Virus record (IMG/VR): IMGVR_UViG_3300003511_000001
Span: 1 to 29,190 of that record
Reading direction: 5' to 3' (one strand)
Length of the DNA stretch: 29,190 bases
From: a virus
How positions within the stretch are numbered: the first letter of the stretch is position 1; the number at the start of each line of letters is the position of its first letter. The position numbers were made by a program, and so were the translations under genes. Shown piece after piece: positions 7,308-17,067 of this stretch. The notes under the pieces are model-generated. The model ran no database searches. It was not told the origin of the DNA and saw only the letters and a list, made by a program, of their open reading frames with translations.

Positions 7308-8567
7308 TTATACTACATTACTCTTTATACTTCTCATATATATGTAGACTATATAAGCTGTAGTTAATCCTGTAATTAGCCATTTTGTTTTTCTTTTAGA
7401 AGATATAGTTATCTGTTTAGCTATATACTTCTTTATCTTCTCTACTCTAGGATCAGTACTTCTACCACTGTTCCAATAGTTCTTTAATAATGTTAATATT
7501 AAAGGTATGTTATTCCTATCAGTAATGTTAACCCCATATCTTTGTAGATATAGTATAGAGATACTTATGATAGCTTCTAATACTTCTTGATGTACATTAT
7601 TAGATTTAGGTAAACCTAACTTCTTTAAATCTTTAACATCTAAGTTATCAGCATTAGTCATATAGGATATGAATCCTTCTAACTCTTTCTCCTTAATAGA
7701 AGGATATAGAGATAATACTACCTTAGTAATGGTCGGGTCTATGAACTCATAATCTTTATTAGCTACACTTTTAATAGTATGTTTAATATTACTAGCATAT
7801 GAATCAATATCTCCTACTACCTTATCACCATCTACGTTAGATGATGTAGTACTTAATTGTTTTATTATTAAATCTTCTTCTAACACAATCATTAATAAAT
7901 TAAAAGCATGATTGATATGTGACCTTATCTTAGTCTGTATATCAGTTATGACTTTTAAACCATCGTCAGTAGTATAAGCTTGTAGCTTCCTATAGTTAAC
8001 ACCTTTCTTATCTATAATAGTTCCTATCATATTGATAAATACAGCCTGCCAAGAACCTAACTGTTTAATAAGAAACTTCTGACTCATCCTCTCATATACC
8101 GTAGTAGCTATATTATCTTTTACTAAGAAATTAAATCTTCTAACATATAAGGAAGTTATCATCATGTAACTCATAACTAACCCAGCTTCAGTCTTTACTC
8201 TATTCTTAACGGTGTCACTCTCAGAACTATGTTGTATTCTATACATAGCATATACTAATAAGTTATATAGTAAATTACTAGATACTTTATGAGACTTAGA
8301 AATACCTTTAACATCATACAGCTCTTTCTGCATTTTAGGGACATTAGTTATTCCAAATACATTCTCTGCTAATCTACTCTCATCTATGATACTAAATCTT
8401 ATCTGGTGTACTCCTAGTAGATTACTACCTAAGAAGTCTATATATTCATCACTTTTAGTAGACCATTCTATTCTAAACTTATGTAGTTTAGATAAGAAAT
8501 GAGTATTAAAATTAATATCTTTTAACTCTTCATCGAAGAATGATTTTAAATCTTTGTACTTATCCAT
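7308..8567 (-). CDS. Unknown phage protein with C-terminal membrane anchor, 419 residues
   Basis: Function not recognised. The protein is helical and charged throughout, with one hydrophobic stretch near the end (WLITGLTTAYIVYIYM, about 397-412) followed by a short basic tail, which fits a tail-anchored inner-membrane or virion-membrane protein. A central hydrophobic helix (INHAFNLLMIVLEEDLII, about 218-235) is amphipathic rather than membrane-spanning. It is the first gene of the minus-strand operon and lies immediately upstream of the large terminase, a position in which phiKZ-like phages often carry conserved virion or packaging genes. No similarity to a portal protein was evident to me. 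The AAAAGGACATAAG site supports the start. Confidence 0.8.
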   Translation of the reverse strand: MDKYKDLKSFFDEELKDINFNTHFLSKLHKFRIEWSTKSDEYIDFLGSNLLGVHQIRFSIIDESRLAENVFGITNVPKMQKELYDVKGISKSHKVSSNLLYNLLVYAMYRIQHSSESDTVKNRVKTEAGLVMSYMMITSLYVRRFNFLVKDNIATTVYERMSQKFLIKQLGSWQAVFINMIGTIIDKKGVNYRKLQAYTTDDGLKVITDIQTKIRSHINHAFNLLMIVLEEDLIIKQLSTTSSNVDGDKVVGDIDSYASNIKHTIKSVANKDYEFIDPTITKVVLSLYPSIKEKELEGFISYMTNADNLDVKDLKKLGLPKSNNVHQEVLEAIISISILYLQRYGVNITDRNNIPLILTLLKNYWNSGRSTDPRVEKIKKYIAKQITISSKRKTKWLITGLTTAYIVYIYMRSIKSNVV

Positions 8568-8661: not shown

Positions 8662-10461
8662 ATGTTAAAGGATATTGATCTAGCCGTAGATAATATAAAA
8701 CTAAAAACTCCTAATAAAGATATAATGGATTTCTTTAAAACTAAGAAAACATTAATCAAAAGGATATATGCCACTAGGTATAATGATTTAACAGAATTTA
8801 AGAAAGTTAATGAATTACCATTTAGTAGAATATTAAGTTTAGAGTATTTAAAAGATTTAAAAGATATAGATGAGGCATCTGATATTATAGGTGCTGTTAT
8901 ATCTAGTAAGAAGAGGATAATGATATGTAGCGATTCTGATAGTGACGGTGTTACATCAGCAGCTATTGGACATTTAATGTTTAAGAATATATTTAAATAT
9001 AGTAATTTTGAAGTAGTAGTAAACAGAAGAGAGTTTGGTAACGGTATTAATAATACTACTACTGAGATACTTATGGATATACATAAAGAGAAACCATTTG
9101 ATTTACTAATTACTAGTGACCATGGTTCTCACGATTTAAAGAATCTAACTATTCTTAAGAAAGAGTTAGGTATACAGATTATAGTAACTGACCACCATTT
9201 AATAGAGGAGGCTACTTCTCCATTAAAGGTAGTGGACGCTTTTGTTAACCCCCAGAGAGACGATAGTACTTTCTCTAAGAAGATAACAGGTACAGTGGTA
9301 TTATATTTTGTATTAGTATATACCCTCATAAAACATTTTAATACTAACTATGAGAAAGGTATAGATTTAGTTTATAAATATATAGCATTTGCAGGACTAA
9401 CTACTATATCCGATGCTATGGATTTAAAAGAAGCTATAAACCGTAAACTAGTCATTAAGACTATAGAGTTACTTAATAGTAATCTACTAGATGATATATT
9501 ATTCTGGAGATTAGCTAAAGATAGGTTATCTAAAGGACCTATAATTGATACAACACAATTAAGTTTTGAATTAATACCTATGTTGAATACTCCTGGTAGA
9601 ATAGGTAATCCTAGATTAAGTTTTAATACACTAATAGCTACTAATGAGAATAAAGGATTAGACCTATATGATAGTTTAGATAATCTAAACAACGTAAGGA
9701 AAGAGAAACAGACTAAAGTACTAGCTGATGAAAACCATGTTACTTATAGTAACGGTACTGTATTAGTGATGTTAGCAGAGAACTCTAATAACATACAAGG
9801 TATCGTTGCTAATAATATTATCTTTAATGATGATTATAAGATAGGTTTTGTATTTGCAGTATCTCCTACAGATGACAAGATATTATTAGGTTCAGGTAGG
9901 ATGTTAGAAGATCCTAATAATCCTCAAAGCTTAGTAGATATTATAGATGAAGTAGCCAAAAATACTGGTATGGTAATAGCTCATGGTGGTCACGCTCTAG
10001 CTATGGGTCTTAAGATTAATAATAATCTGAAAGGTTTCTATACTGCTTTAGTTAAAGTATTGAATAAGAAGAAGATAAAGAAGAGTGAACCTATTACTTA
10101 TGTGGATGAAATTATATATAGTAACAAGAAACTACTTACTTCTATATTAGATATAAAAGAAGCAGCTCCTTACGGTATAGGTTTCCCTAAACCATTATTT
10201 GTATCTGAAGGAATATTACACGCATATAGAATAATAGATAAGGGTCCTAATATCTATATGTCTGGGTTTATAAAGTTATCAGAACAATCTACTTATAAGA
10301 TAGGTTTCTTTTATACTATTAAAAGAGAAGAGAAAGACGCTATGCTAGAAGCTATAAAGCACGCTACCCATATACGAATAGTGTACGAGTTTGCTACTAA
10401 TAGTTTTAGAGGATTAAAAGTACAGCTTAATATTAAGAAGTTGATACCTAAACGAATATAA
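8662..10461 (+). CDS. RecJ-like single-strand DNA exonuclease (DHH/DHHA1 family)
   Basis: A 599-residue DHH-family phosphoesterase, most like RecJ 5'-3' single-strand exonuclease. DHH domain motifs: CSDSDSDGVTSA (89-100) as motif I, ITSDHGSHD (150-158), VTDHHL (175-180) as the DHH triad, and GLTTISDAMDL (245-255) supplying the distal aspartate Asp251. A linker region then carries MLNTPGRIGNPR (307-318), the conserved P-x-x-N-x-x-GR segment of RecJ. The DHHA1 domain shows IAHGGHALAMGL (439-450), the GGH substrate-binding motif. Length and domain order match bacterial RecJ, including a C-terminal beta-rich region. First gene of the plus-strand group RecJ, metalloprotease, tubulin; likely acts in phage replication or recombination alongside the UvsX-like ATPase at 25821. 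AAAGGGAACGTA precedes the start. Confidence 0.9.
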   Translation: MLKDIDLAVDNIKLKTPNKDIMDFFKTKKTLIKRIYATRYNDLTEFKKVNELPFSRILSLEYLKDLKDIDEASDIIGAVISSKKRIMICSDSDSDGVTSAAIGHLMFKNIFKYSNFEVVVNRREFGNGINNTTTEILMDIHKEKPFDLLITSDHGSHDLKNLTILKKELGIQIIVTDHHLIEEATSPLKVVDAFVNPQRDDSTFSKKITGTVVLYFVLVYTLIKHFNTNYEKGIDLVYKYIAFAGLTTISDAMDLKEAINRKLVIKTIELLNSNLLDDILFWRLAKDRLSKGPIIDTTQLSFELIPMLNTPGRIGNPRLSFNTLIATNENKGLDLYDSLDNLNNVRKEKQTKVLADENHVTYSNGTVLVMLAENSNNIQGIVANNIIFNDDYKIGFVFAVSPTDDKILLGSGRMLEDPNNPQSLVDIIDEVAKNTGMVIAHGGHALAMGLKINNNLKGFYTALVKVLNKKKIKKSEPITYVDEIIYSNKKLLTSILDIKEAAPYGIGFPKPLFVSEGILHAYRIIDKGPNIYMSGFIKLSEQSTYKIGFFYTIKREEKDAMLEAIKHATHIRIVYEFATNSFRGLKVQLNIKKLIPKRI

Positions 10462-10477
10462 CGAATATTAAGTGAAT

Positions 10478-10488
10478 TATGATATAAT
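10478..10488 (+). promoter_or_regulatory. Possible second-class promoter, TATGATATAAT
   Basis: Lies between RecJ-like and metalloprotease genes with no terminator between them. One base shorter than the similar box at 8629-8640. Confidence 0.3.
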
Positions 10489-10502
10489 TAAAAGGAATAA
10501 AT

Positions 10503-11705
10503 ATGTTAGATATATTAACTGCAGGTTTTGAGAAAAACTCTCTAATATATAAGGAGTTTCACTCTGATATGGTATCAGTGTTAGCCATCTTAAAAGATCC
10601 TACCATTGATAAAACAACAGTAGCTATACAGTCTAGTAAGATGGAGAGAATAATATATAATAGGTTTGGGATATCTATTAATTTTAATATAAGTAATATA
10701 ACCGCTATATCGTTAGTGGTACCTACGAATAGTATTTATTCAGAAAATGGTAATGATGAAAATACAACAAAGGATTTAAAATATACTGTAGATTATGCTA
10801 GATTACATATAGATAATTTTAAACCAGATAATATACCTAATATTTATTTAGATACGGAACATATGAGTCAGCTAACTCCTAAGCAACTAGTAGCAGTTAT
10901 CTTACATGAAGTAGGTCACGCTTTCTACTTCTATGCTACCTTACAACGATTAGTTAAGAATAATAGTATGTTACTAGATGGGTTAACAAACTTTACTAAA
11001 GGTTCTAAGGATGATAAATCTGTAGTAAAAGAGATAGTTACTAGTTATGATGGTACCCTATCTAATAAAGGTTTAAACAGCCAAGCTTTCGAGATAGTAA
11101 CTAAAGATATTAGAAATATAATGTCCTTAGGTGGGTTCGGTAATCATAGTAGTGATTTTGAAGAACTAGCAGATGCCTTTGTTACTAAGTTAGGGTATGG
11201 TAAAGATTTAGCAGATGCTTTAGATAAGATAACAGATTATAAACCATTAATTATTTCAACTTCTATTATTAACCTTATTATAGTATTACTATTTCAAGTA
11301 ACTATGACTTTAAGTATATTAGCGATACCAATAGCAGAATTCTATACAGGATTCCTTATTGTGACTATGGTATTAATTATAGTTACTGATAACGGAGTTA
11401 CTAGTTATGAAAACTTCTATGAGAGATTAGAATCTATTAAATATAATAGTATCCGTATGATTAGAGTTAATAAATTAACAAAGACTGAGAAAAAGAATAT
11501 AATAAAAGATATAAAAGATATAGATGTTAAACTTAAAAAGTATAAGAATATTAGTAAACCTATCTTAGCTAGTTTAGTAGGAATGTTTGCTGCAAGCGAT
11601 GCTGATAAGTTATTTAATCCAGAGTACATAAGAAATAAACTATTACAAAGTTTACAAGATAATGAGTTATATCTTCATAGTGAAGAGATTTTACAAAAAA
11701 TATAA
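10503..11705 (+). CDS. Membrane-anchored zinc metalloprotease (HExxH)
   Basis: A 400-residue protein with a gluzincin-like active site: TPKQLVAVILHEVGHAFYFY (125-144), with His135, Glu136 and His139, and a downstream FEELADAF (219-226) that offers a third zinc ligand (Glu220 or Glu221) and the following Asp224, as in the M48-type glutamate helix. Two hydrophobic segments follow at about 249-275 and 282-296, placing the catalytic domain N-terminal of a membrane hairpin; the final 100 residues are basic and helical. No N-terminal signal peptide is visible, so the catalytic domain is probably cytoplasmic or inside the virion. Only 10 bases separate it from the tubulin gene, so they are co-transcribed. 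Substrate unknown; it is distinct from the prohead protease at 831. Confidence 0.85.
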   Translation: MLDILTAGFEKNSLIYKEFHSDMVSVLAILKDPTIDKTTVAIQSSKMERIIYNRFGISINFNISNITAISLVVPTNSIYSENGNDENTTKDLKYTVDYARLHIDNFKPDNIPNIYLDTEHMSQLTPKQLVAVILHEVGHAFYFYATLQRLVKNNSMLLDGLTNFTKGSKDDKSVVKEIVTSYDGTLSNKGLNSQAFEIVTKDIRNIMSLGGFGNHSSDFEELADAFVTKLGYGKDLADALDKITDYKPLIISTSIINLIIVLLFQVTMTLSILAIPIAEFYTGFLIVTMVLIIVTDNGVTSYENFYERLESIKYNSIRMIRVNKLTKTEKKNIIKDIKDIDVKLKKYKNISKPILASLVGMFAASDADKLFNPEYIRNKLLQSLQDNELYLHSEEILQKI

Positions 11706-11715
11706 GGAGAGTTAA

Positions 11716-12747
11716 ATGAAAGGTAAGTTAAATATATATGCTTGTGGAGGTATGGGTACCAACGCATTATCATTCTTTTTAAAGAATGGATTGTTAGATT
11801 TAGGAGAAGAGTTCTCTTCTATTAAATACCATACTATAGATACTACATCTAAGACTGTAGATAGTTATCCAGAACTTAAAGATACATTCTACCAAATCAA
11901 AAGTACATTACTATCGTCTGAAGCTTTAGATGGTATGGCTGGTGAGCGTAAGAATACAACAGTTGTTAAAGAAGTACTTAAAGGTGTTACTTCATTTATA
12001 GATGCTAATGTTACTTCTGCTAAAGGAGATTATCATGTAGTTATATTCTCAGGTAGTGGTGGTTCAGGTTCTATTGCAGGTTCATTATTGATTAATGAAT
12101 TAATTAAACAAGACCTAACAGTCATTCCTGTAGTAGCTGGTGATAGTAGTACTCTATTCTATGTTAATAATACTATTAATACTTTAGCTTCTTTAAATGG
12201 AATAGCTAAAGCTGCTAAAGTAGCTCTACCTGTTATCTACTTCGATAACAACTATGATGGTACTGCTACTACTTCTGCTGTTACTGCAGTCAACAATGAT
12301 TTATTAAGAATACTTAAAGTACTAGCTCTGTTTACTTCAGGTAGTGTAAGAGATATTGACCACCAAGATATGTATAACTTCTTAATGCCTAGTAGATATA
12401 CTACAATCGAAGTAGATCCTGGTGTTTATAACCTAACAGCACATATCAAGAAGTTAAATGATCCTAATATTTTATTAGCTAGAACATTATTATCTTCAGA
12501 TAGTCCAGAACCTATTATTGAAGTAAACCTTATGCAGAATAAGGAAGGTCATGTTACTGACACTCAAGCTACTAAAATATCAACAGAGTTATTTCCTTTA
12601 TTCCTAACATTAAAGAAGAATGTTCTTAATGAAGAAGTAATTAGATTACAAGCTAGATATGCTGAACTAGAAGGACTTAAGGTAGTTAACAATGAAACTA
12701 TTGATGGTGTCTCTGGTACTGTAGATGATACTGGTTTAATATTATAA
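11716..12747 (+). CDS. phuZ: PhuZ-like tubulin/FtsZ-family GTPase
   Basis: A 343-residue tubulin-superfamily protein. The N-terminus NIYACGGMGTNAL (6-18) is the first glycine-rich phosphate loop. VVIFSGSGGSGSIAGSLL (108-125) is the G-box, in the serine-rich SGSGGSGS form rather than GGGTGTG. VIPVVAG (137-143) is the next core strand. AVNNDLLRILK (191-201) fits the base-contacting asparagine helix, and SVRDIDHQDMYNFL (210-223) matches the T7 synergy loop with Asp215 and Asp218 in the place of the FtsZ catalytic aspartates, so GTP hydrolysis should be possible. The C-terminus is acidic. In phiKZ-like phages PhuZ filaments centre the phage nucleus and transport capsids; the same role is inferred here. 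Strong AAGGAG site; terminator follows directly. The family is sure, the PhuZ subfamily is probable from context and length. Confidence 0.87.
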   Translation: MKGKLNIYACGGMGTNALSFFLKNGLLDLGEEFSSIKYHTIDTTSKTVDSYPELKDTFYQIKSTLLSSEALDGMAGERKNTTVVKEVLKGVTSFIDANVTSAKGDYHVVIFSGSGGSGSIAGSLLINELIKQDLTVIPVVAGDSSTLFYVNNTINTLASLNGIAKAAKVALPVIYFDNNYDGTATTSAVTAVNNDLLRILKVLALFTSGSVRDIDHQDMYNFLMPSRYTTIEVDPGVYNLTAHIKKLNDPNILLARTLLSSDSPEPIIEVNLMQNKEGHVTDTQATKISTELFPLFLTLKKNVLNEEVIRLQARYAELEGLKVVNNETIDGVSGTVDDTGLIL

Positions 12748-12750
12748 CAT

Positions 12751-12783
12751 AAAGAACAAACTACTAAATGTAGTTTGTTCTTT
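12751..12783 (+). terminator. Terminator after tubulin gene
   Basis: Perfect 13-bp stem (12751-12763 with 12771-12783), extendable by one C-G pair into the 7-base loop. Stem ends in TTCTTT and runs into the second 57-base repeat, as at 4162-4194. Confidence 0.8.
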
Positions 12784-12834
12784 ATTAATTTATTTCATCT
12801 GTATATTATTAATATGTTTATAGAAAGTAACAAA
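12778..12834 (+). repeat. 57-base promoter-region repeat, copy 2
   Basis: Differs at one base from 4189-4245. Both copies sit between a terminator and the first gene of an unknown cluster, so a whole terminator-promoter-leader cassette has been duplicated or conserved. Confidence 0.9.
12800..12816 (+). promoter_or_regulatory. Phage promoter motif P5
   Basis: TGTATATTATTAATATG, a full match to the consensus, 28 bases upstream of the first gene of the small-gene cluster. Confidence 0.65.
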
Positions 12835-12844
12835 GAGGTAATAT

Positions 12845-13135
12845 ATGAAATCTAGAATATATATCTCCAGAGGAGTAATGACTAGAGTAGATGATGTGTT
12901 ATTAAAATATGTAGTGTTGAAAGAGATATCTTTACAGGCACCATATATAGATTTAGGTTATTATAGTAGATATATTAAATCACCTAATCCAGAAGTAGTC
13001 CTAGCTTATAATAATGTAGCAGACGGATACCAGAAAATAATAAAACATTTACTACGCAGCATACAAGGAGATGGAGTAATCCATTTAACAAATATGAAAT
13101 TATATAAATCATTTATAGTTTTTGAACTTAACTAA
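12845..13135 (+). CDS. Unknown small protein, 96 residues, first of small-gene cluster
   Basis: Not recognised. Predicted alpha/beta: strands near the N-terminus (SRIYISRGVMTRV, about 3-15, and LKYVVLKEISL, about 20-30), a helix around VADGYQKIIKHLLRSI (about 58-73), and a C-terminal strand pair ending KSFIVFELN. Gene follows promoter P5 with an AGAGGTAATAT site and leads a run of eight closely packed plus-strand genes. The C-terminal strand pair is reminiscent of the end of the 14480 product, which hints at distant relationship but is not proof. Confidence 0.75.
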   Translation: MKSRIYISRGVMTRVDDVLLKYVVLKEISLQAPYIDLGYYSRYIKSPNPEVVLAYNNVADGYQKIIKHLLRSIQGDGVIHLTNMKLYKSFIVFELN

Positions 13136-13144
13136 GGGGTAAGT

Positions 13145-13930
13145 ATGAATAAAAGATATAATATGGTAGTAGATGAACTACTAGATAATATTATAGAAAA
13201 GAAAGTAAAGAAAATACCTAGAATAATAGTATCTATGGAAAAGAATTATCTGCCAGATGCATATCCACATATATATAAACTAGGGGTATATACAGACGGG
13301 GTAGAACACCCAATAGTATGCAGTACTGTAGAGTACCAAGATCACTATGGTAACGCAATAACTATAACTACTACTGAAGAGTTAAAAGATTATTTTAATA
13401 CTAATAAGGTTCTATATAAGGATAGCTTACCTTATATGACCTTAGATGAATATAGGAGAATATCTAAAACACTATCTAACCAGTCAACAGTTAATATTAT
13501 AACATCTAAGTTTTTAAGTATAGTTAATTACATATATATGACCAGAGTTAATTCTGAACATAAAGCAGTAGTTAATGATGTGTTTGGGATATCCGACCAT
13601 ATAAGCTTATCGTCTAGTGAATGTTTATCGTGTACTAGGTTTGAAGATGTTTATAATCATCTACAGATGAATGAGATAGATGATAATTACCAGCTGTACA
13701 CTGAATATAATATATTTTATTTAGATGTAATGAAAGAACTTAGCGATCACAATCCTTATTCTACAATGATACGTTCTAGTATTAATAACTATGAAATAAT
13801 ATTCTTTAGTTCACCTACCAGTAGGAGATATAAGTTAAACAGTGGTATTTATTTAGAAGAGTTAAAGGCTAAAGAAGAAGAAGATATATTGAAAGGAAAG
13901 ACAGATAATGTATATCAATCACATACTTGA
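13145..13930 (+). CDS. Unknown phage protein, 261 residues
   Basis: Not recognised. Nine bases after the previous stop with a strong AAGGGGTAAGT site. Rich in Tyr, Ile, Asn and Asp, no membrane segment or signal peptide. A pair of cysteines occurs in SSSECLSCTRFED (about 156-168). The last 25 residues are a charged helix (EELKAKEEEDILKGK). The next gene begins inside its 3' end, 23 bases of overlap, so expression is coupled. Confidence 0.8.
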   Translation: MNKRYNMVVDELLDNIIEKKVKKIPRIIVSMEKNYLPDAYPHIYKLGVYTDGVEHPIVCSTVEYQDHYGNAITITTTEELKDYFNTNKVLYKDSLPYMTLDEYRRISKTLSNQSTVNIITSKFLSIVNYIYMTRVNSEHKAVVNDVFGISDHISLSSSECLSCTRFEDVYNHLQMNEIDDNYQLYTEYNIFYLDVMKELSDHNPYSTMIRSSINNYEIIFFSSPTSRRYKLNSGIYLEELKAKEEEDILKGKTDNVYQSHT

Positions 13931-14462
13931 CCCATACTTGATATCTGATTTTACTAAAGGTATACATACTAATGATGTATCAGAGTTAGTAAGAATAGAT
14001 TTAATATCTATACGGTTTTCTAAATATAATTTAATATTGAATACTAAAATATTCTCTGTTAATGAAGAGTTAGTTACACCTAAAGAGAAAATAGAGATAG
14101 AGAAGTTAACCCGTACTATTATTGAGGATAGTTTATTACATTCCTTTGTTATGTACTTTGATACCAGTGCTGGGTGTAGAGAAGAGATGTTATCTGATTT
14201 TAAAATTAGATTATATACTTCTATAGATGATCATTCATTAACTACATCTATAGATATAAATTCATTAAACTTACATACATTTTTTGATGAATGTATAAAT
14301 TTAATAATTAAAGACGTAAGTGGTAGGTTAGAGTTAAGCGATACTCCTTTAAAAGGATTAACCCATATGTATAGCTTATCTACTACCGACAGGTTAAACG
14401 TATACTTAATGTATAGTAGTGTGCGTGGGATAGTGCGTGTTATGAGATTTAAACCAAAATAA
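13908..14462 (+). CDS. Unknown phage protein, 184 residues
   Basis: Not recognised. The ATG at 13908 is preceded by GAAAGGAAAG inside the upstream gene and the reading frames overlap by 23 bases. The sequence alternates likely strands (LVRIDLISIRF, about 27-37; SFVMYFDTS, about 78-86) with an amphipathic helix near the middle and ends with two strands, LNVYLMYSSVRGIVRVMRF. No catalytic signature seen. Member of the small-gene cluster. Confidence 0.78.
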   Translation: MYINHILDPYLISDFTKGIHTNDVSELVRIDLISIRFSKYNLILNTKIFSVNEELVTPKEKIEIEKLTRTIIEDSLLHSFVMYFDTSAGCREEMLSDFKIRLYTSIDDHSLTTSIDINSLNLHTFFDECINLIIKDVSGRLELSDTPLKGLTHMYSLSTTDRLNVYLMYSSVRGIVRVMRFKPK

Positions 14463-14479
14463 TATTGAAAGAAGAGTAT

Positions 14480-14803
14480 ATGAAGAAGGTAGTTAAGGTA
14501 GATGTATCATTTTATGTAGCCGCTATAGGTACAATAATAAAACATGAAGCCACAGAGGTAACACTTTTAAGGAATTATAGATATCCTAATACTAGTGCAT
14601 TAGTAGATGGGTTTATAAAACATTTTACAGAACTAGGGTTTAATATCAATTATGATAACCTATTTAGTTTCCTTACAGAATTAGAGACTGCTATACTAGC
14701 CTCTATTCCTGAATTATATTCAGATGTGATTAGCTATAGAACCTTAGAAGTAACTAGATTCACCAACTTTCAATATTTAGTTTTAGAAGTAACTTATAAA
14801 TAA
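14480..14803 (+). CDS. Unknown small protein, 107 residues
   Basis: Not recognised. I prefer the ATG at 14480 over a TTG at 14465 because GAAAGAAGAG lies at the proper distance in front of it. Pattern is strand (KVVKVDVSFYVAAIGTIIK), helix (SALVDGFIKHFTELGF), helix (LFSFLTELETAILASI) and a final strand pair (RTLEVTRFTNFQYLVLEV), a compact beta-alpha-alpha-beta protein. The stop codon lies in the left arm of a 15-bp terminator, which divides the cluster into two transcription blocks unless read through. Confidence 0.75.
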   Translation: MKKVVKVDVSFYVAAIGTIIKHEATEVTLLRNYRYPNTSALVDGFIKHFTELGFNINYDNLFSFLTELETAILASIPELYSDVISYRTLEVTRFTNFQYLVLEVTYK

Positions 14804-14835
14804 GAGAAGTGCTTAGGTGTACTTCTCTTATTTAT
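14796..14835 (+). terminator. Terminator inside the small-gene cluster
   Basis: Perfect 15-bp stem (14796-14810 with 14821-14835), 10-base loop, followed by TTTAATAATAA. A start codon at 14809 would lie inside it, another reason to place the next gene start at 14857. Confidence 0.75.
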
Positions 14836-14856
14836 TTTAATAATAAAAGGATTACA

Positions 14857-15504
14857 ATGGTAAAAAATATACCTAATATCAATAGTTATATAAATTCAAC
14901 ATATCGTGGATTGATAGCGGATATAGACGATATAACCGAATTCAAATATGGTGACGAAACATATATACCTACGATGATATATTGTAGGAGGGACTTAACA
15001 GATATTATCTACAATGCTAAGATAAGTATTGGTGATAATTTAAATAAAACACATATAATACATACAGACCATGCATTAACTACCTTAGTAAGAGTTATAA
15101 CGGAGTTAATAATGTTTGTTATTAATATAAGAATAGACGATAGAACTACTAACGAAACAACATTGATAAATGACGATGATATCTTAATAGATATTATTAT
15201 TATGGTAGTAAATGATTTCTGTTTAAATTCACCTACACCAAATATACCAGAACTAGAGAGCTGTGAACATTATCACGAGATAGGTGGGTTACCAGAATTG
15301 ATTAATGTTATAATAGACTCGATAGGTGCTCCAATCACTGAGCTATTAGGACAGATGGCTTTAACTTCTAAGTTGGATACTAAGTTTATATCGTTTATAC
15401 CAACAGAGTGGTCAGAGTCTGATAATAGTTATAATTTATTAATAGCTGTAGTTGAGACTATGGAAGAAGTATATGCATTAGGATATAATGATGAACCTTA
15501 TTAA
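14857..15504 (+). CDS. Unknown phage protein, 215 residues
   Basis: Not recognised. Start placed at 14857 behind AAAAGGATTACA; the 16 codons upstream of it fall in the terminator hairpin and have no ribosome binding site. Strongly acidic, rich in Ile, Asp and Thr. Hydrophobic helices TTLVRVITELIMFVINIRI and DDILIDIIIMVVNDFCL (about 75-125) look buried rather than membrane-spanning because of interspersed charges. C-terminal part has strand pair FISFIPTEWSE and YNLLIAVVETME. Overlaps the next gene by 17 bases. Confidence 0.78.
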   Translation: MVKNIPNINSYINSTYRGLIADIDDITEFKYGDETYIPTMIYCRRDLTDIIYNAKISIGDNLNKTHIIHTDHALTTLVRVITELIMFVINIRIDDRTTNETTLINDDDILIDIIIMVVNDFCLNSPTPNIPELESCEHYHEIGGLPELINVIIDSIGAPITELLGQMALTSKLDTKFISFIPTEWSESDNSYNLLIAVVETMEEVYALGYNDEPY

Positions 15505-16093
15505 ACAGTTGTCCGATGAGTTTGCATTAACTAATGATTCGCTTTATACTTACCTAGATGAAATAGTATTTGATACAGTATCAAGTACCTCTACCAAGGT
15601 TTTCTATATAGATAATGTATATATAGATTTTACATATATGTTAGATGATTTAGATGTAAGACTTACAGAAACTATATTATCTTTAACCCCTAATACTATA
15701 ATAGATAATAATATTAAAGTATTAACAAATAAGTTAGTTAAAACTTACTTAGAAGATTATGTATTTAATAAGTTAACATCTGTAGACTCTGAGATATATA
15801 GTACTGTTGGAGTAAGAATATGCAGTTATCTCTGGTGTGAAGATGAAGCCGAGAAAGAATACATTCTAAATAAGTTAAATATATTTATGAATGAGATGTT
15901 CTCTAATTTAGATAAAGAACCTTATTACAATAGTGTCTTTTATAAATTTAAGAATAGTTTAAAGTGTGCTGCTAATGTATTAGAGGCTAAGCAGCTACAT
16001 CCGCATACTGATTTAGTAATACCTCTTAAATGGAGTGTTAGTAGAGATGGTGGTTCAATACTTAAAGTAGTAGTGATGGTGCCTGATAGGTAA
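15488..16093 (+). CDS. Unknown phage protein, 201 residues
   Basis: Not recognised. Begins with two consecutive ATG codons behind TTAGGATATA, inside the end of the previous gene. Acidic, helical middle (LVKTYLEDYVFNKLTS, EKEYILNKLNIFMNEMFSNL) and a C-terminal strand pair (LVIPLKWSVSRDGGSILKVVVMV), again the strand-pair ending seen in several cluster members. Stop codon is inside the terminator hairpin loop. Confidence 0.78.
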   Translation: MMNLIKQLSDEFALTNDSLYTYLDEIVFDTVSSTSTKVFYIDNVYIDFTYMLDDLDVRLTETILSLTPNTIIDNNIKVLTNKLVKTYLEDYVFNKLTSVDSEIYSTVGVRICSYLWCEDEAEKEYILNKLNIFMNEMFSNLDKEPYYNSVFYKFKNSLKCAANVLEAKQLHPHTDLVIPLKWSVSRDGGSILKVVVMVPDR

Positions 16094-16104
16094 CCATCAC
16101 TATT
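16069..16104 (+). terminator. Terminator overlapping gene end
   Basis: 10-bp perfect stem (16071-16080 with 16093-16102), extendable by G-T and A-T pairs to 16069/16104, loop of 12 bases, followed by CTTTCTATTTTTCTTT. The stop codon (16091-16093) sits at the loop edge. Confidence 0.65.
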
Positions 16105-16147
16105 CTTTCTATTTTTCTTTGAATATTAAAAATGCAGGAGACTATTA

Positions 16148-16678
16148 ATGAAGTTTATATGTTTAGATACTATGAATGGTAGGGTAACTGCCTTTATGAG
16201 CATAGAAGAAATGAATAGTTATCTAAAAACTGATATTATTAATAAACATGTTATCCACAAGGATCTATGGGTTCGTTTTAGATACAGTGATTGTTTAGTA
16301 GTTAAATATAATATAGGTGGCACCGCTAACCTTACAGAAGTACAGTTTATAGAACTATTAAAGATATCTAAGATATCTAATAAGAAGTTTAAATATAAAG
16401 GTTTTGTTATAAAGAATCCTTTATTAGAATATAATATTGCTGGTCGTAATATAATATCTATAGGTGAAAGCAGTAATGCAGTTATAGACGATGTAGATAC
16501 TAGTGATAAATTAATTCACGTAGGTCTTTATACCACTAAGAGTAGTAGAACTATAACTAATTTAGTTTTTTTAGATAAAATAGATACTGTTAAGAGTTGT
16601 TTAATAAAGTATGAGAACTATCATGTAGTTATAGACGCTAATGGAGATAGAATTAAAAGGGAGATAGAATGTTTATAA
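16148..16678 (+). CDS. Unknown phage protein, 176 residues
   Basis: Not recognised. GCAGGAGACTATTA precedes the ATG. Beta-rich with several short strands (FICLDTMNGRVTAFM at the N-terminus; SDCLVVKYNIG, about 47-57; NKKFKYKGFVIKN, about 77-89). No cysteine cluster, no membrane segment. Ten bases overlap with the next gene. Possibly virion-associated since a large structural gene follows, but this is only context. Confidence 0.77.
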   Translation: MKFICLDTMNGRVTAFMSIEEMNSYLKTDIINKHVIHKDLWVRFRYSDCLVVKYNIGGTANLTEVQFIELLKISKISNKKFKYKGFVIKNPLLEYNIAGRNIISIGESSNAVIDDVDTSDKLIHVGLYTTKSSRTITNLVFLDKIDTVKSCLIKYENYHVVIDANGDRIKREIECL

Positions 16679-17067
16679 TAGATAAAAGATATAACTTCAG
16701 TACTAAAGCACCAGTTACTTTAGGAGAGAATTATAAGAATATGAAAGCAGTAGCTAGAGTTAACTTTACATTTGCTACTAATTACCTAGATGTAATTACA
16801 GTACACGAAGCTATAGCTAATGAGATTAATAGTTCTCTTAATAACTATAGAGATGTTATGTATACTGTATTTGAATCAGATAGTGGTGATACTATAGTAA
16901 TCTCTGATGAATGGGTTATTCCTAGTTCAGTGTTAGCTATTAATAATATAGATTTAGAATTAATAATTTCAGATATAACTACTGAAGATATTACAACAAT
17001 AACGAATACTCTTAACTCTTTAAATTATCATAAGATAAAGAGTACAATACGGAATGCTGATGAGTAA
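16669..17067 (+). CDS. Unknown small phage protein, 132 residues
   Basis: Not recognised. Start inside the previous gene's last codons with AAAAGGGAGATAG in front. N-terminal strands (AVARVNFTFATNYLDVITV, about 26-44), a helix (HEAIANEINSSLNNY), further strands (DTIVISDEWVI, LELIISDITTED) and a Thr/Asn-rich C-terminus. Last of the small-gene run; no terminator before the structural gene 38 bases downstream, so both may share a transcript. Confidence 0.75.
   Translation: MFIIDKRYNFSTKAPVTLGENYKNMKAVARVNFTFATNYLDVITVHEAIANEINSSLNNYRDVMYTVFESDSGDTIVISDEWVIPSSVLAINNIDLELIISDITTEDITTITNTLNSLNYHKIKSTIRNADE

Follow-up and report, generated by a model that had tools for sequence, protein, structure and literature searches.

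PhuZ, the tubulin of nucleus-forming phages, forms filaments. According to excerpts of four published accounts (PMC10299810, PMC12908238, PMC13282480, PMC12571901), these filaments position the phage nucleus, rotate it and bring in capsids from the inner membrane, and the protein is non-essential. A second, less conspicuous component of these phages is a head protein, known as gp84 in phiKZ and gp45 in SPN3US. According to excerpts of two papers (PMC5694885, PMC10052503), the prohead protease removes a 20-residue propeptide from SPN3US gp45; the excerpted discussion of PMC10052503 swaps the propeptide lengths of gp45 and gp225. Where the excerpted literature pairs PhuZ with a metalloprotease, it concerns an FtsH homologue of phage MIJ3 and JAMM-type proteases of Borgs. 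Our literature search, whose coverage of the relevant papers was incomplete, found no paper calling gp84 or gp45 a metalloprotease, and a 2025 survey of phages with chimallin and phuZ may already cover the clade described below.

Here we analyzed the IMG/VR virus record IMGVR_UViG_3300003511_000001, whose 29,190 bases we call the window and in which a phuZ gene directly follows a homologue of gp84.

Results

Gene content of the window

The window, with a GC content of 27-36% per kilobase, encodes a phiKZ-type head maturation protease, RNA polymerase beta subunit families, terminase, tail sheath and a UvsX-like recombinase. The PHROG families matched include phrog_2987 and phrog_3233 (RNA polymerase beta subunit), phrog_3014 (head protease) and phrog_3242 (sheath), as well as terminase. 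A multisubunit RNA polymerase together with phiKZ-type structural genes is one of the marks of Chimalliviridae, and the window has genes of both kinds. Searching a phage collection at E 0.001 returned no record for window DNA 8662-13930, nor for the PhuZ of the nearest relative (G001). A sigma-70 promoter scan was uninformative (61 sites found, 60.4 expected), and terminator-like sites numbered 3 against 1.3 expected.

A distant member of the PhuZ family

The first-pass annotation had read one open reading frame of the window as a PhuZ-like tubulin with a serine-rich G-box and intact T7-loop aspartates. The relevant features are as follows.

11716 to 12747, + strand: phuZ, phage tubulin of 343 amino acids, ATG start (phrog_4733, fold and PDB matches, trees)
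12049 to 12072, + strand: codons of the T4 G-box SGSGGSGS, residues 112-119 (alignments)
12358 to 12369, + strand: T7-loop codons, residues 215-218, with D215 and D218 (invariant in aligned PhuZ rows)
12721 to 12744, + strand: PhuZ-type C-terminal tail VDDTGLIL (alignments)

Residues 2-342 matched phrog_4733 ("tubulin PhuZ") at E 4.3e-39; the match to Pfam Tubulin was weak (25.3 bits, under the 33-bit cut-off). When a profile built from the window's clade only was searched against the PDB, it retrieved five chains of PhuZ (E 1e-18 to 2.4e-13), with the next tubulin-type entry at E 0.27. We then compared an AlphaFold2 model of the protein (pLDDT 91.5, pTM 0.90) with the PDB, and ranks 1-5 were all PhuZ (Goslar, 201phi2-1 and phiKZ; E 4.7e-23 to 1.1e-15), followed by CetZ, FtsZ and TubZ from E 7.3e-10 on, CetZ first. 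The annotation had proposed a phylogeny against PhuZ, TubZ and FtsZ as a check; in both trees that we built with E. coli FtsZ as the outgroup, one of 56 rows (12 near-duplicates among 68 rows dropped) and one of 63 rows (the split PhuZ of G019, described below, left out), the window fell inside phage PhuZ, and TubZ, which had no row in either tree, was compared by profile and by fold alone. A search of the phage collection at E 0.01 matched 40 records, with identities of 26-31%. The open reading frame is a genuine but distant member of the PhuZ family, and the annotation was right about its identity.

The two motif claims also held. SGSGGSGS is a form usual for PhuZ, since SxSGGSGS occurred in 8 of 23 aligned rows, the window among them, and D215 and D218 were invariant in two alignments of PhuZ rows (10/10 and 30/30). 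An acidic C-terminal tail is an important feature of PhuZ, and the VDDTGLIL of the window, which aligns with the tails of other PhuZ proteins, is such a tail. Judged by its family, the protein would be an ordinary spindle tubulin.

In a different record, IMGVR_UViG_3300048591_000242 (L246, genome G019; 125200-129000), PhuZ is split inside the G-box codons by about 2.3 kb. The insert holds two open reading frames of 226 and 426 amino acids, which by their motifs resemble homing endonucleases. It is intron-like, yet Rfam at gathering threshold gave no match in L246, nor any in the window.

A head-protein family with metalloprotease motifs

The gene upstream of phuZ had been annotated as a membrane protein with an HExxH protease motif. 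Its features are listed here.

10503 to 11705, + strand: homologue of phiKZ gp84 and SPN3US gp45, candidate M48-like membrane metalloprotease of 400 amino acids (phrog_2767, motifs)
10503 to 10532, + strand: predicted propeptide, residues 1-10, ending in GFE, a prohead-protease-like site (conserved glutamate, analogy with SPN3US gp45)
10905 to 10919, + strand: HEVGH codons, residues 135-139 (motif, alignments)
11160 to 11174, + strand: codons of the third-ligand motif E220-x-x-A-D224 (motif, alignments)
11238 to 11408, + strand: hydrophobic, probably membrane-spanning stretch, residues about 246-302 (hydropathy scan)

Residues 40-394 matched phrog_2767, a family of "unknown function," at E 1.6e-41. 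Each of the 24 records tested contained one copy of this family; the set includes four, L003, Goslar, SPN3US and Phabio, that had been selected beforehand for matching the protease. SPN3US, which had no match to PhuZ, carries the family too. The phiKZ member is gene 84, annotated as "structural head protein," and gene order and coordinates identify the SPN3US member as gp45 (gene 47 begins at 44887/44899). Residue 20 of SPN3US gp45 is the glutamate of ASE. The corresponding glutamate occurs in 41 of 42 aligned rows, including the window, and takes the form [AGS]xE in 37 of the 42; the site of the window is GFE-10. By sequence and by analogy with gp45, the window protein would likewise be trimmed and packaged in the head.

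The annotated protease character stands as a prediction, with the HEVGH at residues 135-139 and the hydrophobic stretch at about 246-302 both in place. In a profile search, two motifs, HExGH and a downstream E-x-x-[AS]-D, were invariant in all 24 family rows, the window row of this alignment starting at residue 47. The motifs were also found in 83/83 protease open reading frames from IMG/VR, a count that says less because the loci were found with patterns containing HExGH or the AD motif; for the same reason, the invariants of the 42-row alignment are partly built in. Of 24 homologues, 23 had a hydrophobic stretch above the threshold (SPN3US by a narrow margin); Phabio did not.

Several comparisons point toward the M48 peptidases. 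The family profile matched human ZMPSTE24 with a whole-sequence E of 1.3e-4 and Ste24p of S. mikatae with 0.0078; among the aligned pieces of ZMPSTE24, the E..AD stretch reached 0.0014 and the HExxH stretch was not significant alone. A distant relative (L221) matched both phrog_2767 (E 5.2e-22) and, above the cut-off, Pfam Peptidase_M48 (26.7 bits). Because the window protein itself fell under the curated cut-off of Pfam M48 (PF01435; 14.1 versus 20.3 bits), we use the label M48-like rather than M48; phiKZ gp84 had no Pfam match. A structural model of the window protease was of moderate quality (pLDDT 74.6), and Foldseek returned no significant match for it, the best being ZMPSTE24 at E 0.098. 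The top seven VIA neighbors, with Z of 7.1-8.9, comprised six entries of ZMPSTE24, Ste24p or BepA (Z 7.2-8.9) and one putative Zn peptidase, and the tool warns that Z of 7-9 may mean only a common arrangement. At least two relatives, among the best 60 of 162, are named "beta-barrel assembly-enhancing protease" in database records. Taken from sequence and model, the gp84 family is a candidate M48-like (Ste24/BepA type) membrane metalloprotease with predicted activity.

Linkage of the protease and PhuZ genes

The protease and PhuZ genes of the window are separated by exactly 10 bases, the distance given by the first-pass annotation, which had called such coupling unexpected. This judgment was borne out: in the 21 other PhuZ-bearing records (not counting the window and G001), the two genes lie 36.5-101 kb apart with a median of 46 kb, genomes being treated as circles where this gave the shorter distance. 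The gene of phrog_2921, the family of phiKZ gp32, lies within 25 kb of PhuZ in 20 of the 21 other records, the exception being Eowyn (115 kb), and 3-6 kb from PhuZ in the window and G001. PhuZ therefore occupies its normal position, and it is the protease that has moved in.

We surveyed gene neighbors of the protease in IMG/VR, as the annotation had suggested, keeping 80 of 102 pattern matches as protease loci and searching 50 of these, with near-duplicates left out, for tubulin. A PhuZ or tubulin match was present in 35 of the 50 records, and in five of them, representing four distinct loci, PhuZ lay within 3.1 kb of the protease (L172 and L173 represent a single locus present in two records, and G001 appears as both L155 and L002). 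The next closest tubulin was of a different type, at 5.9 kb (L221), and all others were at least 32 kb away; this minimum drops to 16 kb if one 62-kb contig forms a circle. Across all 80 loci, the examined flank held no PhuZ in 72. With G001 and the window included, the linkage is found in seven records, or six distinct loci, with the same order and strand throughout. Such recurrence is more than chance. Compared with the window, the linked loci have PhuZ proteins that are 34-45% identical and proteases that are 26-30% identical.

The linked PhuZ proteins formed one clade (support 100/99), recovered in 100% of 200 bootstrap trees. In the nearest PhuZ rows outside this clade, G012, G014 and G011, the protease is 32, 36 and 62 kb away, within a run that resembles phiKZ 84-90 in layout only, by gene sizes and strands. 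In the protease tree (103 rows cut to 74; one of the 83 open reading frames left out), the linked rows belonged to a supported set of 11 together with the relatives from G012, G014 and G011, but two changes are needed on this tree, in which the window row sits on a long branch. The linkage appears to have arisen by one relocation in one uncultured branch and to have been kept afterwards.

Two large contigs, L221 and L223 (G008 and G009), carry a gp84-type protease with a different tubulin nearby on the other strand. This tubulin is 376 amino acids long (Pfam Tubulin 73.9 bits for L221) and had no match in the phage collection, and neither contig had a chimallin match.

Arrangement of the gene run

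Four further features complete the run in the window.

7308 to 8567, - strand: phrog_2921 (phiKZ gp32) homologue, divergent, marking the usual place of phuZ (E 1.4e-61; positions in 24 records)
8662 to 10461, + strand: RecJ-like DHH exonuclease, first gene of the run (phrog_2484 E 2.3e-62; Pfam DHH and RecJ_OB over cut-off)
11704 to 11709, + strand: Shine-Dalgarno sequence of phuZ, AAGGAG, which overlaps the stop codon of the protease gene (direct reading)
12749 to 12785, + strand: perfect 16-bp hairpin directly 3' of phuZ, terminator-like (z -7.6)

All six loci share the order phrog_2921 (-), RecJ (+), protease (+), PhuZ (+) and then small open reading frames; this gene order, joined to PhuZ proteins of a single clade, is new here. 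The RecJ family occurred in 3 of the 24 records (the window, G001 and LucasX, the last being the sole one of 21 named phages). After the small open reading frames, a phrog_3181 homologue follows in five of the six loci and was not seen in L163.

Spacing is less uniform than order. RecJ and protease are 41 bases apart in the window and protease and PhuZ 10, and the corresponding gaps in the other five loci are 31-1163 and 224-2190 bases. One of them, L158, has an open reading frame of 274 amino acids on the opposite strand between RecJ and protease, so a single transcript is not general, and stable hairpins occur 3' of PhuZ in four of the six loci. We rejected the close coupling as an old trait: the 10-base gap is peculiar to the window, which makes the tight coupling a local compaction of an arrangement that is older and shared.

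The proteases of the other five linked loci (L002 6915-8930, L158 9797-11908, L163 9830-11887, L173 9626-11650 and L196 9806-11896) are 671-703 amino acids long and carry an additional C-terminal domain with a DxHxxN...DP motif. This domain had no Pfam match, and of the five copies two, those of L002 (3.8e-4) and L173 (2.1e-6), weakly matched families of phage kinases; a search of all six frames of the window did not find it.

Two observations concern the downstream genes. Eight small open reading frames lie 3' of PhuZ at window positions 12845-17067; three of them were searched against PHROG, with no match, and three of the eight (at 13145, 14465 and 16669) had matches in similar places of other linked loci. 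In L158 (16817-18900), the phrog_3181 homologue is present as two overlapping open reading frames in different frames, due to a frameshift or a sequencing error.

Chimallin in the linked records

The annotation had taken the tubulin as a sign of a nucleus-forming phage and had proposed a search for the nuclear shell protein, chimallin. This search succeeded in the relatives and came up empty in the window: chimallin was found in four of the seven linked records (G001, G003, G006 and G007), 26-36 kb downstream of PhuZ in each, and was not found in the three others, which are fragments of 29 kb (the window), 26 kb and 55 kb. In the window, 16.4 kb of sequence follow PhuZ. The chimallin row of G002 was unusable. 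With an independent model, the chimallin of G001 scored E 2.9e-36 (a value of 6.7e-137 is a self-match), and those of G003, G006 and G007 scored E 6.9e-28, 6.6e-50 and 1.3e-57 with a profile that included G001. Since chimallin is present in four of the seven linked records and the others are fragments, the window is likely, or very likely, from a nucleus-forming lineage, as the annotation had proposed.

SPN3US had no match to the chimallin family model at E 10. The PhuZ-less phage Asesino forms a nucleus, according to an excerpt of its description (PMC11724907), so the model may miss some chimallins. For SPN3US, either the model misses or the phage has no chimallin.

Discussion

We propose, with a probability of roughly 70%, that the window represents a deep chimallivirus clade with a PhuZ spindle and a head-packaged, M48-like protease, whose genes were joined once by relocation of gene 84. 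The clade is known here only from metagenome contigs, and we found no isolate. Its run of RecJ, gp84-type protease and PhuZ reads away from the phiKZ gp32 homologue; in the window, the three genes are packed closely and PhuZ is followed by a hairpin. Judged by family, PhuZ would build filaments, driven by GTP, for positioning the phage nucleus and transporting capsids. The protease would be a head-packaged, membrane-anchored, M48-like zinc metalloprotease from which the prohead protease would cut about 10 N-terminal residues. It would go into the head together with the DNA and probably be ejected from there into the next host; its targets may be proteins at that cell's inner membrane or at the early-infection vesicle. 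Gene 84 would have left the head-gene block once, landing between the gp32 homologue and PhuZ, and the two genes would have stayed together, probably through shared expression, with proteins that mostly act at different stages. Early-infection vesicles contain injected virion proteins, as stated in an excerpt of PMC12908238, and our literature search found nothing placing gp84 in these vesicles. JADA, an immune trigger, was considered and dropped; the excerpted report (PMC12931631) places it directly downstream of an nvRNAP subunit gene.

The strongest competitor to shared expression is that the adjacency is an accident of rearrangement, carrying no functional or regulatory meaning. Such an accident would sit well with the single origin seen in the PhuZ tree and with the variable gaps and inserted open reading frames, one of them on the opposite strand, but it would have had to survive deep divergence in six loci with order and strand constant, and the window has tight spacing, a Shine-Dalgarno sequence and a closing hairpin. 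We therefore regard it as unlikely.

The first-pass annotation had gone further in the other direction, suggesting that the protease and the tubulin act together. In its most specific form, this would mean that in this clade a membrane-anchored head protease marks or anchors sites of capsid assembly, or filament ends, at the inner membrane, and that the spindle collects new capsids there. What makes a joint role possible is the behavior of capsids, which form on the inner membrane and are transported along PhuZ, as excerpts of two papers describe (PMC12908238, PMC13282480), and the linkage has been kept in six loci despite the low identities of both proteins to those of the window. Yet the protease is present in the PhuZ-less SPN3US, all 21 other records that bear PhuZ have it 36-101 kb away, and the order of the neighboring genes in the block has likewise been conserved, so the kept order is not special to this pair. 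We lowered the standing of a dedicated PhuZ partner on these grounds, namely that the family occurs in 24/24 records and usually far from PhuZ, and with the 10-base gap confined to the window, the suggested partnership is unsupported; cooperation of the kind described seems to us quite improbable.

A host-like FtsZ or plasmid-type TubZ in a phage that forms no nucleus is scarcely credible and was rejected: the weak Pfam Tubulin match, the lack of chimallin in the window fragment and the lack of a TubZ row in the trees would allow it, but PHROG, PDB profile and fold all put PhuZ first by a wide gap, the protein falls inside PhuZ in the trees, and the relatives encode chimallin.

The membrane-protease character of the gp84 family is, in our view, a more interesting lead than its adjacency to a tubulin. 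A head-protein family present in 24/24 records, with the catalytic residues of an M48-like membrane metalloprotease, may be an overlooked enzyme, and an ejected membrane protease would be a candidate for forming the early-infection vesicle from the inner membrane. At its boldest, and as a long shot, the idea would be that nucleus-forming phages package in their heads a Ste24/HtpX-like zinc protease able to insert into membranes, which would arrive with the DNA and help to make or remodel this vesicle. In the present clade it would have come under joint control with the spindle since it would also link the assembly of capsids at the membrane to their transport by PhuZ.

Comparison with known systems

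The M48 membrane metalloproteases ZMPSTE24/Ste24p and BepA share the HExxH and E..AD motifs and a membrane-type hydrophobic stretch with the window protein and are its top structural neighbors; unlike them, the window protein comes from a phage head-protein family, scores under the Pfam cut-off and has an activity that is only predicted. The PhuZ proteins of Goslar, phiKZ (gp39) and 201phi2-1 are alike to that of the window in fold, family, G-box, T7 aspartates and acidic tail. They differ from it in sequence (about 18-20% identity in structural alignments) and in phylogeny, the window belonging to a separate clade whose relatives are known here only from IMG/VR contigs, and only the window PhuZ has a protease gene beside it. 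The closest counterparts of the protease are phiKZ gp84 and SPN3US gp45, which it resembles in family match, catalytic motifs, N-terminal cleavage-like site and hydrophobic stretch, although its identity to the 41 other aligned family rows is about 17-25%. Its five linked relatives bear an extra C-terminal domain, whereas the window protease does not, and whereas the phiKZ gp84 / SPN3US gp45 type sits in the head-gene block, the protease of the window adjoins PhuZ.
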